Assembly: GCF_006715095.1 (NCBI RefSeq)
Contig: NZ_VFMO01000001.1
Location: forward strand, 806,001 to 870,000
DNA length: 64,000 nucleotides
Origin: Yimella lutea
GTDB lineage: Bacteria > Actinomycetota > Actinomycetes > Actinomycetales > Dermatophilaceae
Direction: 5' to 3'
In this document: one piece after another, positions 17,265 to 25,494 of the stretch
Layout: each line of letters starts with the position of its first letter
Position numbering within the stretch: position 1 is the stretch's first letter
Translations under genes and position numbers: made by a program
The notes under the pieces: model-generated
Seen by the model: only the letters and a program-made list of their open reading frames with translations
What the model was told of the DNA's origin: nothing
Database searches by the model: none

Positions 17265-18482
17265 TCAGCGGTCGATGTCGCCGACGACGAAGAACATCGA
17301 TCCCAGGATCGCGACCATGTCGGCGACCAGGGTCTCCTCGAGCACTTCACTCAGGACGGCCACATTGTTGAACGATGCCGACCGGAGCTTCAGGCGCCAT
17401 GGCGTCTTGTCACCGCGGGAGACGAGGTAGTAGCCGTTGAACCCCAACGGGTTCTCGGTCGCGAAGTAGTCGGTGCCCTCGGGCACCTTCAGCACCTTCG
17501 GCAGCTTCACGTTGACCGGTCCGGCCGGCATCGAGCGCAACCGATCCACGCAGGCTTCGGCCAGGTCGAGGCTGACATGGATCTGCTCCAGGAGCACTTC
17601 CAGGCGTGCCTCGCAGTCGCCGGCGGTGCGGGTCACCACGCGTCCGGGGCCGCCGGGCGCGAACAATTCACCGTAGGCAAGGTAGGGCTGGTCGCGACGC
17701 AGATCGACGTCGAGCCCGCTGGCTCGTGCGATCGGCCCGCTGACTCCGTACGCCTTCGCGGTGCGGGCCGACAGCACGCCGACCCCACGCGTGCGGGCAC
17801 GCAGAATCTCGTTGCCGATCAGCAGCGATTCGAGTTCGGGCAGGCGCCGGCGGACGGCCTCGATCGCCGCGTCCACCCGCTGCAACCAGCCGGCCGGCAG
17901 GTCGTCACGCAGGCCACCGACGCGGGAGAACATGTAGTGCATCCGTCCGCCGGAGATCTCCTCCATGACGGCCTGCAACTCCTCGCGCTCGCGGAAGCTG
18001 TAGAAGATCGGGGTGATCGCACCGAGCTCGAGTGGGTAGGAGCCGGCGAACATCAGGTGGTTCAGTACGCGATTGAGTTCGGCCAGCAGAGTGCGCGTCC
18101 AGGTGGCCCGTTGGGGCACGTCCATGCCCAGCATCCGCTCGACCGTGAGGGCGACACCGATCTCGTTGCTGAACGCCGACAGCCAGTCGTGTCGATTTGC
18201 CAGCACCATGATCTGCCGGTAGTCGCGCACCTCGAACAGCTTCTCCGCGCCGCGGTGCATGTAGCCGATGACCGGTTCGGCGTGCTTGATCAGCTCGCCG
18301 TCGAGGGTGAGCCGCAGACGAAGGACGCCGTGCGTCGCGGGGTGCTGCGGACCGATGTTGAGCACCATGTCGGTGGTGGAGAAACCGGTGCCGCCCACCG
18401 CCGCGGTCACTGATGGAGAATTTTGTGGTCCTGTGTCCGACCGGTTGCCCGCAAAGCGTTCGTCGTCGGAGCTGGAGGGCAT
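17265..18482 (-). CDS. Orphan NuoD-like (49-kDa complex I subunit) protein
   Basis: A 405-aa homologue of the quinone-site subunit of NADH dehydrogenase, with no other nuo gene in the window. The N-terminal motif GPQHPATHG (quinone-cavity His at 51), [10 protein letters not shown] (residues 73-82) and the C-terminal [12 protein letters not shown] are all intact, so it folds as NuoD. The Tyr that contacts quinone in complex I (bovine Tyr108) is Trp100 here. Arg77 matches the Arg that NDUFAF7 methylates in the human subunit, and a MidA/NDUFAF7-family gene lies two genes away. The start at 18482 is the longest; the conserved domain begins near residue 37. It may act outside complex I. Confidence 0.85.
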
Positions 18483-18556
18483 GGGGCCAGTTCATCCCAC
18501 CCGGGCGCAGCGTGCAAGCCGCCTCGCTGAGGGTGGCGGAAGGTACCGTGGGCGGC

Positions 18557-19407
18557 GTGAACGATCAGATGGGGGACCAGGGGCCGCACACGCCGCCGCC
18601 GTCGCAGGACCGCTATTACCAGCGGTACCTGCAGGACACCGACCCGACGCTTCGGAGTTCGGGTGGAGCAGGCACCGGTGGTCGCAACGCGCTCATCGCC
18701 GCAGGAGTCATCGCTGCGCTCGCGCTCGGTGGAGTCGGCATCTGGGCGTTGACCGGCGGTGACGACGAGCAGGTCCAGGGCGGCGCTTCGCCGCCGACCA
18801 CCGCCACCACGACACAGACCACGACCACATCGGCGTCGACGACGAGCACCACCACGTCGAGTTCGCCGACTGTCGAGCCTATGACGTTCCGGACAACGAC
18901 AAGTGGGAACCACCGAAGCACTCCGGTGACCTGCAGGGGTGGCTCGCCGACAACAAGGAGGACAAGGGCGTGGTCGCCAGCGCGCCGTCCGAGTACGGCA
19001 AGGGTCACTGTCCGACGGCGAAGACCGCCGCCACCGGATTCATCGGCTTCGTGAACATCGGCACCCGCGACCCGGCGGAAGCCGCCCCGTCCGTCATCGA
19101 GAACGTCGCGAAGCTGATCACGTACGACAAGAAGACGAAGAAGTACCTGAAGTACAGCCCGGCCCGAACGCGTCAGATCACCGTGAACGGCGGGAAGACG
19201 CCTGCGATCGAGTCGCTGATGACGATGGACGTCGCGAACCCCGAAGCGAAGAGGTGCGAGGGGAAGAAGGCCGAGGCCCGGGTCGTCGCCTTCTCCGGTA
19301 GCGGGGTATCGGTGATGCTGTTGATCTCACGCGACATGGACACCAAGAAGAAGATGTCCGACCAGGACATCCTCGACATCATCAACTCGTTGCGTCCGAA
19401 GAAGTGA
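18557..19407 (+). pseudogene. Frameshifted single-pass membrane protein with Thr-rich linker
   Basis: From GTG 18557 (7 nt after TACCGT, 18544-18549) the frame gives a soluble N-terminus, a membrane helix (ALIAAGVIAALALGGVGIWAL, residues about 38-58) and a Thr-rich linker. It then becomes Arg-rich nonsense and stops at 19054. A second frame is open through the linker and reads as a coherent extracellular domain (VEFADCRAYDVPDNDKW ... KGHCPTAKTAATGFIGFVNI) to 19407. The shift falls in ACC/ACG repeats at about 18800-18870. It may be a disrupted gene, slippage-prone coding sequence or a sequencing error. The domain has paired Cys residues; no family is recognised. Confidence 0.7.
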
Positions 19408-20347
19408 CCCGCTCCAGCGACCAGTAGAACGCGCCCAGTCCTGCCGGCTCGGTGAACGTCGCGTAGGCGGAGCGTCGGCGCAGCATCAACAGGTACTTCG
19501 TCGGATCCATGCGCGCGAGCTCATGATCGGGACGATCGGGAATGACGAGGTATCGCGCGGCGATGTCCTTCTGCTGCAACAGTTCCGGTACACCGAGCGA
19601 GTCCATCGACACGTGCGCGGTGAGGTCGGTGGAGCCGTCGAAGCGGGGCTCGCAGATGGCGCCGGCCCGGTAGCCGGTGAAGGTCGAGTCCGTCGGCCGG
19701 TCCTCGATCGTGTGCCCGTAGTCGACGCAGATCAGCAGTCCGTCGGCGATCCGTGATCGCAGTTCGCAGTAGGCGTCGTCGCGCGTGGTGCCGATCTCGG
19801 CTGCTTGCGCGTCGGGCCAGTGCTGTTCGCACCACTCACGCTCCCGGTCGCTGAGTTCTCGGCCCGGACGCGACCCACCGTCGGGCGCGACCTCCAGAAC
19901 GCGAAGGCCGTCGCACGTGGTCACGGCGATCTCGCAGGGCACGACGTCGAGCCATTCGTGCGCCAGCACCAATGTCGACCTCAGATCGGTCAGTTCGTCC
20001 GGGAGGCCTTCGCCGCCGGGCGAACGGACCCACTCCACGGACGCAGGCAGTCCGGCCGGACGATCGACGACGTCCACACCCGTCAGCTGAAGGCGCTTCG
20101 ACCGCTGAGCAATCAAAGCCAGCAGTTCACCTCTGCCACAGCCGATTTCGACCACGTGATCCAGCCGGTGCTCTTCGGCGATCGCGATGATGCACTCGGC
20201 GAGGAGTTCATCCACCCCGGGCAGGCCCTGCGCCGAGGTGCTGAAGTGGGCCGCCGGTCCGCCGGGTTGCCGGTAGAACCCGTCAGCCCCGTACAACGCC
20301 TCGTGCCACGCCTGGCGCAGCGGGCGCGTGGACGGTGAATTCGGCAC
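19382..20347 (-). CDS. MidA/NDUFAF7-family SAM-dependent methyltransferase
   Basis: A 321-aa member of the COG1565 (PF02636) family. Family features are an ALYGADGFYRQ start near residue 17, the SAM loop VVEIGCGRGELLAL near 67, LAHEWLDVVPCE in place of the usual NELLDALP, VDYGH near 216 and DLTAHVSMDSLG near 250. The human member NDUFAF7 dimethylates an Arg of the NuoD-equivalent subunit of complex I. Here it lies close to an orphan NuoD-like gene on the same strand. GTG at 20347 is 6 nt after TACGCT (20354-20359). It overlaps the convergent neighbour by 26 nt. Confidence 0.8.
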   Translation of the reverse strand: MPNSPSTRPLRQAWHEALYGADGFYRQPGGPAAHFSTSAQGLPGVDELLAECIIAIAEEHRLDHVVEIGCGRGELLALIAQRSKRLQLTGVDVVDRPAGLPASVEWVRSPGGEGLPDELTDLRSTLVLAHEWLDVVPCEIAVTTCDGLRVLEVAPDGGSRPGRELSDREREWCEQHWPDAQAAEIGTTRDDAYCELRSRIADGLLICVDYGHTIEDRPTDSTFTGYRAGAICEPRFDGSTDLTAHVSMDSLGVPELLQQKDIAARYLVIPDRPDHELARMDPTKYLLMLRRRSAYATFTEPAGLGAFYWSLERVTSSDATS

Positions 20348-22815: not shown

Positions 22816-23727
22816 TCAGTGTTCGATCGCATCCATCAGATCGCCGTCGCGGTCGAGGCGCTCGAGCACATCCTCGAAATCGAGTTGACGCAGCACCCCC
22901 GGGTGCTGCGTTTCTCGTTCCAGTTCGTCCCACGTGCGTGGCGCGGCCACCGTGGGACGCTCCTTCGCGCGCATCGAGTACGGGCAGACCGTCGTTTTGG
23001 CGGCGACATTCTGCGACCAGTCCAGCAGGATCTTGCCCTTGCGCAGATTGGTCGTCATCTTCCACACCACGAGATCGGGCATGTCCTTGGTGAGCGCCTG
23101 CGCCACCTCGCGCATCGAATCGCGCACCTCGTCGCTCGAACGGGAACCATCCAAAGGCGCGTACAACTGCAGGCCTTTGCTGCCCGAGGTGACCGGAACA
23201 CTGGTGTCATGTCCGAGGTCGGTCAGTCGTTCGCGGACAGCCAGGGCGAGAACGGCGCATTCGTGCAGACCGGCCGGCGCGCCGGGGTCGAGATCGATGA
23301 CCAGGCGGTCCGGATTCTTGGGGGTGAGGTTTGCGTCGACCCGCCACTGCGGCACGTGCAACTCGATGGAGGCGAGATTGGCCAGATAGGTGAGCCCGGC
23401 CACATCTTCCACCAGCGGGTAAGTCACCTGATCTCCGCCGCGCGAACCACGCGAGTCGATGGTCACCCGCCCCAGCCAGTCCGGTGCACCTTGGGGCAGA
23501 TTCTTTTCGAAAAAGCTGATCCCACCCACGCCCTCGGGAAATCTGATCCGGGTCAACGGCCGGTGCTCGAGTTGCGGCAACAACACCGGGGCGACGGTGG
23601 CGTAATAGTGCAACACCTCACCTTTTGTCGTTTCGGTCGCCGGAAACAGCACTTTGTCCAGATTCGACAGGCCGAGTTTGCGGCCGTCCACCTCGACCGT
23701 GACGGTCTGTTTCTCCGGTGCCATCAT
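22816..23727 (-). CDS. Stand-alone LigD polymerase domain (NHEJ primase-polymerase)
   Basis: A 303-aa protein equal to the polymerase domain of LigD, used for gap filling at double-strand breaks. The metal-binding Asp pair is in VIDLDPG near residue 134, the nucleotide pocket in VTSGSKGLQLYAPL near 166, and LPQGAPDWL is near 75. The start is ATG 23727, in an ATGA overlap with the ligase gene (ATG 23724 directly follows). No phosphoesterase domain is present. Confidence 0.9.
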   Translation of the reverse strand: MMAPEKQTVTVEVDGRKLGLSNLDKVLFPATETTKGEVLHYYATVAPVLLPQLEHRPLTRIRFPEGVGGISFFEKNLPQGAPDWLGRVTIDSRGSRGGDQVTYPLVEDVAGLTYLANLASIELHVPQWRVDANLTPKNPDRLVIDLDPGAPAGLHECAVLALAVRERLTDLGHDTSVPVTSGSKGLQLYAPLDGSRSSDEVRDSMREVAQALTKDMPDLVVWKMTTNLRKGKILLDWSQNVAAKTTVCPYSMRAKERPTVAAPRTWDELERETQHPGVLRQLDFEDVLERLDRDGDLMDAIEH

Positions 23728-24683
23728 TCGTCTCCGTTCGGGGAAGCCGCACGAATCTGCAGGTCGGCCACGGTCAGATCCGAGCGCAAGCCGCGCCAGG
23801 CGGGCTGCCGCAAGCGGCCGGCGTCGGAAAGGCCGTGGAACTCGACATCGGCAACAAGGTGCGGCTCGACCCAGATCGCATCGCGCGCGTCGACGTCCGG
23901 CACACCGGTGACCACCGGCGCAGTCTCGCGACGCAGCGGGAGCAGGTCGCGGGCGAGCGTCACCCCCTTGCGACCGGCCAGGCCGGAGCCGACGCGTCCG
24001 CGATAGGCGAGCCCGACCTCGGTGGGCTCGGCGAGCAGCACCGATCCGAGAACGGACCCGGCCTGTTGACGCCGCCACCCGACGATCACGTAACTACCGG
24101 TGCGCCGGTGCAGCGTCTTGCGCCAGTCGTCGCTGCGCAGACCGGGCGAGTATTTCGAGCCGACCCGTTTGGAGACGATGCCCTCCATGCCCTGGTCGGC
24201 GGTGGCGTCCAACAGGGCCTCGCCGTCGGCGAACTCGGGCGGCACCGACACCCACTTCGACGTCGGGGCGATGGAGTCGAGCAGGTCGCGTCGTTCCCGC
24301 CAGGTTCGGCCCGTGACCGGGCTCCTCATCACGCGCAGCACGTCGAAGACCATGGCGGTGACGGGCGCGGTCGAGGCCAATTCGTCGGCGCTGTTCGGGT
24401 CGACGACATTGAACCGCTCGGCGAGCGCCGCGAACGAGGGCCGGCCCGCTCGCATGACGACGATCTCGGCGTCGAGCAGCAGATCCTCGAAATCAGCGAG
24501 CCCGGAGGCGGGCGATGCCAACTCGGGAAAGGCGATCGTGACGTCCCGTTCGGTGCGGCTGAAGACGCGGACGCGGTGATCACGTACGTCGATCAGGGCG
24601 CGCATCCCGTCCCACTTGATCTCGTGTCGCCACTCGTCGCCGCGAGGAAGGACCTCGGCGGGGGTGGCGAGCATGGGGCGCAT
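23724..24683 (-). CDS. ATP-dependent DNA ligase (LigD-type ligase domain)
   Basis: A 319-aa ligase with the adenylation motif EIKWDGMR near residue 22 (Lys nucleophile). Motif III-like VFDVLR, motif IV EGIVSKRVGSKYSPG and motif V KTLHRR follow, then an OB-fold. It corresponds to the ligase domain of LigD encoded separately. ATG at 24683 is only 16 bp from the divergent ku start, so the promoters must overlap the coding starts; CAAGAT lies 6 nt upstream of the ATG as a possible -10. Confidence 0.9.
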   Translation of the reverse strand: MRPMLATPAEVLPRGDEWRHEIKWDGMRALIDVRDHRVRVFSRTERDVTIAFPELASPASGLADFEDLLLDAEIVVMRAGRPSFAALAERFNVVDPNSADELASTAPVTAMVFDVLRVMRSPVTGRTWRERRDLLDSIAPTSKWVSVPPEFADGEALLDATADQGMEGIVSKRVGSKYSPGLRSDDWRKTLHRRTGSYVIVGWRRQQAGSVLGSVLLAEPTEVGLAYRGRVGSGLAGRKGVTLARDLLPLRRETAPVVTGVPDVDARDAIWVEPHLVADVEFHGLSDAGRLRQPAWRGLRSDLTVADLQIRAASPNGDE

Positions 24684-24699
24684 GGGGCAATCTTGACGG

Positions 24700-25494
24700 A
24701 TGCGAGCGATCTGGAAGGGCGCGGTCTCCTTCGGCCTTGTCAATGTGCCGGTGCGGTTGTACTCGGCCACCGAGAACCATGATGTCCAGTTCCGTCAGGT
24801 GCACCGCACCGACGGCGGCCGGATCAAGTACCAGCGGGTGTGTTCGATCGACGGCGAGCAGGTCTCGTACGACGACATCGCCAAGGGTTACGAGACCGAC
24901 TCCGGCGAGATGGTGGTGCTCGACGACGACGATCTCGCCGACCTGCCGATCAGCACCACCAAGGAGATCGCGGTCGACAAGTTCGTTCCTGCCGAGCAGA
25001 TCGACCCGTTGGTGCTCGACAAGTCGTACTACCTGGAGCCCGACAAGAGCGCGGTGAAGCCGTACGTGCTGCTGCGTGAGGCACTCGAACAGACCGATCG
25101 CGTTGCCCTGGTGACGGTTTCGCTGCGTACCCGTTCCACCGTGGCGCTGTTGCGGGTCCGCGACGACGTGATCGTGCTGCAGACGATGTTGTGGCCGGAC
25201 GAGGTGCGCAAGCCCGAGTTCGGGGTGCTGGACGACGACGACACGAAGATCAAGAAGGCTGAGCTCGAGATGGCTCACATGCTGGTCGAGTCACTCGCCG
25301 GCGATTACGAGCCCGACGAGTATTCCGACGACTACGAGCAGGCGGTCAAGGAGGTCGTGAAGGCGAAGCTGAAGGGCGGTGAGGTCAAGAAGCCGGCCGC
25401 TGCGGCAGAATCCGAGGGCGAAGTCATCGACCTTCTCGCAGCGTTGCAGCAGAGCGTGGATCGCGCCAAGAAATCGCGCGGCGAGGCCAGCTGA
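24700..25494 (+). CDS. ku: Ku homologue, non-homologous end joining
   Basis: Binds DNA ends as a homodimer and recruits LigD-type activities (264 aa). The characteristic start is MRAIWKGAVSFGLVNVPVRL. The beta-barrel core and FVPAEQIDPLVLDKSYYLEPD near 90 are intact. The C-terminal region is short, Lys-rich and ends in KKSRGEAS. It is divergent from the ligase and polymerase genes, so the whole end-joining set is encoded in 2.7 kb. Confidence 0.95.
   Translation: MRAIWKGAVSFGLVNVPVRLYSATENHDVQFRQVHRTDGGRIKYQRVCSIDGEQVSYDDIAKGYETDSGEMVVLDDDDLADLPISTTKEIAVDKFVPAEQIDPLVLDKSYYLEPDKSAVKPYVLLREALEQTDRVALVTVSLRTRSTVALLRVRDDVIVLQTMLWPDEVRKPEFGVLDDDDTKIKKAELEMAHMLVESLAGDYEPDEYSDDYEQAVKEVVKAKLKGGEVKKPAAAAESEGEVIDLLAALQQSVDRAKKSRGEAS

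Follow-up and report, generated by a model that had tools for sequence, protein, structure and literature searches.

We analysed a stretch of 64,000 nucleotides from Yimella lutea (contig NZ_VFMO01000001.1, positions 806,001 to 870,000; hereafter the window) in which a gene for a NuoD-family protein of complex I, here termed nuoD2, lies near midA, a gene for a methyltransferase of the MidA/NDUFAF7 family. In human cells NDUFAF7 dimethylates Arg85 of the complex I subunit NDUFS2 and is required for complex I assembly (PMC3829151; statements about published work refer throughout to excerpts of the papers cited). An earlier note on this DNA had read the two genes as an enzyme–substrate pair outside complex I. 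The features concerned are the following, in window coordinates.

17265..18482, minus strand: nuoD2, NuoD-family protein of 405 residues, most likely serving an 11-subunit complex I as its D subunit, displaced from the other genes
18252..18254, minus strand: codon for Arg77 of nuoD2, predicted MidA target and equivalent of bovine Arg85
18183..18185, minus strand: codon for Trp100 of nuoD2, at the position of the quinone-binding Tyr in canonical NuoD
19382..20347, minus strand: midA, MidA/NDUFAF7-family S-adenosylmethionine (SAM)-dependent methyltransferase of 321 residues

The 17265–18482 product matches Pfam PF00346 with 236.3 bits and passes the NCBIfam NF004739 cut-off (371.2 versus 360), falling below those of NF008974 (374.5 versus 522) and of the canonical-NuoD equivalog TIGR01962 (374.7 versus 459.35). 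The large subunit of [NiFe] hydrogenases binds the NiFe centre through two CxxC motifs; this identity was rejected on finding no CxxC anywhere in the 405-residue translation. The nearest named relative by NuoD2 protein is that of Metallococcus carri (87%), and all 80 loci of named relatives have Arg at residue 77 and Trp at residue 100. At these two sites the canonical paralogue encoded in the same genome has Thr (GYLHTGIEKN) and Tyr (RMDY), the latter being the quinone-binding residue of canonical NuoD (PMC8119997), so that at the quinone head-group site NuoD2 departs from the canonical type. MidA scores 43.5 bits against PF02636 (curated Pfam cut-off 23.3) and is the sole match to that protein in its genome; its best solved relative by sequence match is 1ZKD (DUF185; E = 9.8e-6), and Gly71, Ala129, Glu131, Leu133 and Asp134, in the SAM-binding and A-x-E-x-L-D regions, are invariant across 38 relatives. 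Pfam and the residue position thus bear out the earlier description of a NuoD-like protein with Arg77 near a MidA-family gene on the same strand, and the accompanying statement that the window holds no other complex I gene agrees with a scan in which every complex I subunit served as query and which at E up to 1e-6 returned nothing beyond nuoD2 and midA.

A second complex I and its probable D subunit

The Y. lutea genome is a single contig of 3.53 Mb. The canonical nuo operon starts at about 910 kb, and its Thr-type NuoD lies about 42 kb past the window end. NuoB (PF01058) and NuoH (PF00146) are each present in two copies, the second copies at about 942–944 kb in a ten-gene cluster, nuo2, with the order A2-B2-C2-H2-I2-J2-K2-L2-M2-N2, every gene of which gives the expected Pfam match. 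Genes for D, E, F and G are absent from this cluster (locus L215), the gene content, D apart, of an 11-subunit complex I. Two nuoD genes were found in the genome. Since nuo2 lacks D and the window gene, about 117 kb away, is the only spare nuoD found, NuoD2 is most likely the displaced D subunit of a complex composed of NuoA2, B2, C2, D2 and H2 to N2, without E, F and G. The NuoB and NuoH searches overturned the idea that NuoD2 and MidA are survivors of a lost complex in this genome, and the presence of nuo2 led us to reject a function unrelated to complex I. A nuoD2 apart from an otherwise contiguous nuo2 operon has already been published for Streptomyces (PMC3765725, PMC8388888); of a link between NuoD2 and MidA, our searches of open-licence papers found no report.

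The assignment is strengthened by relatives in which D has stayed with its complex. In a survey of 119 genomes of the phylum, NuoD2-type proteins (Arg plus Trp) are encoded inside nuo2 operons at 32 loci, some of them cut by contig ends. In a quick maximum-likelihood tree, the operonic and displaced forms and those of reduced lineages (described below; long-branched, with nine of 14 reduced genomes included) make up one clade of 77 rows with a Shimodaira–Hasegawa-like approximate likelihood-ratio (SH-aLRT) support of 99, five Thr-type rows standing apart; one row, L194_G043, is wrongly labelled as displaced. All 77 rows have Arg77 and Trp100. In the residue scoring one canonical row was read as Trp, which we take for a pattern error, other alignments giving Tyr. 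The replacement of the quinone-binding Tyr by Trp thus extends across the whole NuoD2 clade, operonic forms included, and, given Trp100, the nuo2 enzyme as a whole may deal with its acceptor in another way.

A residue swap at the iron–sulfur cluster N2 points to the partner of NuoD2. In Thermus and Yarrowia an intersubunit swap has been described in which Thr in the NuoD homologue goes with Arg in the NuoB homologue, the side chains overlapping near N2 (PMC8042128). Among 62 aligned NuoB rows, the three with Arg each stand beside a Thr-type NuoD; the other 59 have Thr, 43 of them sharing a fetched locus with an Arg-type NuoD and 16 coming from displaced nuo2 clusters. In a second alignment 11 canonical NuoB, whose loci also encode a Thr-type NuoD, have Arg and 19 NuoB2 have Thr (the cluster of genome G062 is counted in both alignments). 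Y. lutea itself pairs D-Thr with B-Arg in the canonical complex and D2-Arg with B2-Thr in the second. Because of this complementarity at N2 we take NuoB2 to be the partner of NuoD2, and clade membership together with the complementary NuoB2 residue places NuoD2 with the nuo2 set, by an argument from sequence rather than purification.

The residue swap also led us to reject NuoD2 as an isoform of the canonical complex. With two NuoD-family proteins in one cell, NuoD2 could be an alternative D that replaces canonical NuoD in the 14-subunit enzyme under some conditions; this would bring together a canonical NuoB Arg and the NuoD2 Arg, a pairing that no cluster read here contains, and NuoD2 clusters with the NuoD of nuo2 operons, away from the Thr-type rows. 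We regard such a role as highly improbable. That NuoD2 and MidA act as a pair wholly outside complex I, the second half of the earlier proposal, would fit the lack of further complex I genes in the window and the clusters of 14 other genomes that hold no membrane subunit gene. It is hard to reconcile with a ten-gene nuo cluster lacking D in the same genome, with the complementary Thr of NuoB2 and with the operonic relatives at 32 phylum loci, and is in our view very unlikely here.

Association of NuoD2 with MidA and the proposed mechanism

At 77 of the 80 named loci MidA lies within the fetched flank of NuoD2; the other three are two 3.7 kb contigs (L125, L145) and a locus with 2.5 kb of sequence on one side (L143). 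In the named Streptomyces loci the gene order and orientation of the pair have changed. A survey of 197 genomes of the class (NuoD2 at E up to 1e-100, MidA profile at E up to 1e-10) found NuoD2 in 75, MidA in 85, both in 73 and neither in 110, so that MidA accompanies NuoD2 in 73 of 75 genomes and occurs in 12 of the 122 without it, the co-occurrence that the earlier note had proposed to look for. Of the 91 genera, 41 have NuoD2 and 49 have MidA. The two genes are less than 11 kb apart in 67 of the 73 genomes and on different contigs in six. Among the 12 MidA genomes lacking NuoD2 at the cut-off, a sub-cut-off NuoD2 lies about 0.1 kb from MidA in four (G159, G175, G276, G295) and about 2 kb from it in G303, and NuoD2 fragments occur on the MidA contig in G138 and G185; five (G130, G178, G187, G217, G275) show no such trace, of which G178 was rejected as clear evidence for MidA in the absence of NuoD2, since its contig stops soon after MidA.

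In the phylum survey PF02636 is found in 34 of 47 NuoD2 genomes, and 39 of 40 PF02636 genomes have an Arg-type NuoD. G022 enters neither set; a broken NuoD2 there was rejected, the gene spanning two contig ends with weak MidA matches near one of them. Outside the class, 29 genomes have both genes, on one contig 0.2–20 kb apart in 17 and on different contigs in 12; in five (G016, G031, G069, G091, G102) MidA lies 7.7–8.4 kb from an operonic NuoD2. Fisher values for the class and phylum co-occurrence ignore kinship among the genomes. Co-occurrence and linkage support MidA and NuoD2 as a putative enzyme–substrate pair. Pairing is the half of the earlier interpretation that stood, and a place outside complex I, with nuo2 lacking D about 117 kb away, the half that found no support in this genome.

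The electron donor is suggested by a second neighbourhood. In Y. lutea, korA and korB, encoding a 2-oxoacid:ferredoxin oxidoreductase (KorA scores 645 bits against TIGR03710), are arranged head-to-head with nuo2 at a distance of about 6 kb from nuoA2, and korAB adjoins nuo2 or a nuo2 remnant in 20 of the 30 class genomes fetched, Y. lutea included. The substrate of KorAB is presumably 2-oxoglutarate. Since korAB adjoins nuo2, ferredoxin reduced by KorAB is the likely donor to NuoI2. We recognized no description of korAB linked to complex I in the open-licence literature; for Streptomyces, a region has been noted that contains korA and korB along with nuoA, nuoB and nuoC (PMC13118837). Many of the nuo2 and B2-C2-I2 clusters (L261, L263, L218, L222 and others) have a gene of the YajQ family (DUF520) close to their far end.

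What has been observed directly is that the genes exist, are linked and co-occur, that residues are swapped at N2 and that korAB lies beside nuo2. As for methylation, the residue equivalent to Arg85 adjoins N2, and its mutation in Yarrowia abolishes N2 (PMC8042128); it is dimethylated in Paracoccus and not in E. coli, and in Thermus it is Thr, as the earlier note had stated (PMC3750175, PMC8042128). We infer physical assembly, methylation and its effect, and the electron donor and acceptor as follows. MidA would dimethylate Arg77 of NuoD2, as NDUFAF7 does Arg85 of NDUFS2; the dimethylated NuoD2 would join NuoB2 around N2, stabilizing the cluster; and electrons from KorAB-reduced ferredoxin would pass through NuoI2 to N2 while the membrane subunits pump protons. 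Taken jointly, that NuoD2 is the displaced D of a second complex I, is methylated by MidA and serves a ferredoxin-fed proton pump seems to us quite probable.

Several observations weigh against this proposal. The Arg alone proves nothing about methylation, because that of E. coli is undimethylated (PF02636 is found in three of 14 control genomes, E. coli not among them). NuoD2 is present without a MidA match in two class genomes, G131 (78% complete) and G236 (98%), and korAB was seen beside none of the 11 clusters of families f12 and f11. In the phylum survey 13 of the 47 NuoD2 genomes have no PF02636 match and keep the Arg; there, either a different enzyme modifies the Arg or it stays unmethylated, like the E. 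coli residue. The corresponding 13 loci, all with operonic NuoD2, are L155, L156, L159, L161, L163 and L175–L182. G092 (L052, L193), the one exception among the 40 PF02636 genomes, matches PF02636 twice, its only NuoD match being of the Thr type, and its MidA-family protein may have another substrate. These last two findings, with the order fol genes–NuoD2–MidA–DUF2520–panC kept widely within the class as an inherited neighbourhood, would also suit a reading in which the two genes are neighbours by inherited position only and MidA acts on something else. Inherited position accounts poorly for joint absence in 110 and joint presence in 73 class genomes, for the rearranged Streptomyces loci, for MidA near operonic NuoD2 in the five genomes named above and for the Arg-type NuoD in 39 of 40 PF02636 genomes. 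Moreover, the fetched stretches of family f12 and of G006 have the pair without fol or pan genes, which gives the association more than one genomic setting. We therefore consider mere neighbourhood unlikely and retain methylation of NuoD2 by MidA as the preferred reading.

In Y. lutea nuoD2 and midA form no operon, a plus-strand gene of about 0.9 kb (18557–19407) lying between them. Its product has a membrane segment, a Thr-rich linker and a small domain, and the gene is split over two reading frames with the break near 18860 in the Thr-rich repeat, perhaps through a frameshift or an error of assembly. One flank carries a DUF3180 gene (Pfam) with folBK-, folP-, folE- and ftsH-like genes, and the other a DUF2520 gene (Pfam) with panC, the fol, ftsH and panC genes being named by eye from translations. 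The region 22816–25494 looks by eye like an ordinary end-joining repair locus, in which a LigD-like polymerase and ligase, split and encoded on the minus strand, diverge from a Ku-like gene.

Lineages with an apparently reduced second cluster

Of the 75 NuoD2 genomes of the class, 25 gave no nuoH2 match at E up to 1e-70; 24 of these 25 have a second NuoB, the exception being G299. NuoB neighbourhoods were fetched for 20 of the 25 (all but G135, G170, G176, G205 and G229). In 14 the second cluster found consists of B2-C2-I2 only (G127, G129, G131, G142, G145, G149, G158, G164, G174, G188, G202, G214, G218, G236); G270 and G062 are partial, G132, G136 and G179 are cut by contig ends, part of nuoH2 being visible in G136, and G299 gave the canonical genes only. 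The single-contig genome G062 has a partial A2 followed by B2, C2, I2 and a 123-residue nuoH2 remnant, its Pfam NuoH search returning, besides canonical nuoH and this short remnant, a further partial match of 136 bits; it looks like a halfway state of reduction. By the starred branches of the tree the reduced label needs at least two changes, a number that the long branches make unsure.

The proteins themselves differ at sites read across these groups. The N-terminal helix of NuoI2, before the first cluster motif, is missing from all 13 reduced sequences read, whereas all 22 displaced clusters with nuoH2 encode it (the pattern missed L262 and had too few upstream residues for five operonic rows, in which the helix is visible in the alignment). 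A PRQ (or PRR) loop of NuoB2 is found in all parsed displaced (20), operonic (31) and intermediate (five) rows and in none of the 14 reduced rows aligned, two reduced pattern matches falling downstream of the loop; the pattern parsed 20 of 22 displaced, 31 of 32 operonic, five of five intermediate and 11 of 14 reduced loci. The N2 cysteines and the Thr of NuoB2 are kept in reduced genomes, as are Arg77 and Trp100 of NuoD2 (nine of nine read), and MidA is kept in 12 of the 14, without a match in G131 and G236.

The most straightforward interpretation is that in these lineages the second complex I may have shed its membrane arm and become a soluble NuoB2-C2-D2-I2 iron–sulfur enzyme fed by KorAB and ferredoxin and served by MidA, a possibility that we take seriously while placing it somewhat short of probable. 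Three points tell against it: the search for lost subunits had low sensitivity in most reduced genomes, NuoD2 mostly retains its quinone-site His in this group, and in Chloroflexi nuoBCDI is split from the membrane arm genes (PMC7117926). As nuo genes can be split between loci, absence from the cluster is no proof of loss. A 2025 survey counted 2,171 species with incomplete complex I (PMC12361115); its main text does not mention MidA, and the excerpts describe no remnant of the B2-C2-I2 type.

Relation to known systems and significance

The proposed system resembles the action of NDUFAF7/MidA on NDUFS2 Arg85 in human and Dictyostelium in its PF02636 enzyme and in an Arg within HRGxEK near N2. 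It differs in that the target there belongs to the main complex I, whereas here the main complex has Thr and the Arg belongs to a second complex, of 11 subunits, with its D gene beside midA; methylation here is a prediction. Nqo4 of Paracoccus denitrificans is likewise a bacterial NuoD with Arg at the equivalent site, its dimethylation having been found by mass spectrometry in the authors' complex I (PMC3750175), in contrast to the predicted modification of NuoD2. The Streptomyces nuo2 genes also form a second set without E, F and G and with a separate nuoD2, and the excerpted descriptions mention neither MidA, the residue swap, korAB and reduced clusters nor nuoC2 (PMC3765725, PMC8388888); nuoC2 is present in G023 and G107, which lie next to a named Streptomyces in the tree. 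A Desulfitobacterium complex (nuoABCDHIJKLMN) shares the lack of an NADH module, its electron donor being unknown, but not the displaced D, the Trp in place of the quinone-binding Tyr or the adjoining korAB seen here (PMC11238625).

The observation made in the earlier note was therefore confirmed and its interpretation proved half right, and the relatives seemingly devoid of a membrane arm are the most interesting lead. For this complex I, which has received little study, the KorAB neighbourhood suggests ferredoxin as the donor. With Thr at the corresponding site of the coexisting 14-subunit enzyme, bacteria such as Streptomyces would make it possible to study a complex I arginine methyltransferase genetically and separately from the main respiratory enzyme. 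Among other Actinomycetes there are some in which the NuoD2–MidA pair may outlive the membrane-bound pump, and lineages that seem to lack the membrane arm while keeping both enzyme and target would constitute a natural experiment on the purpose of the methylation. If the soluble relic is real, NuoD arginine methylation would serve N2 and the NuoB–NuoD joint rather than quinone chemistry or proton pumping.

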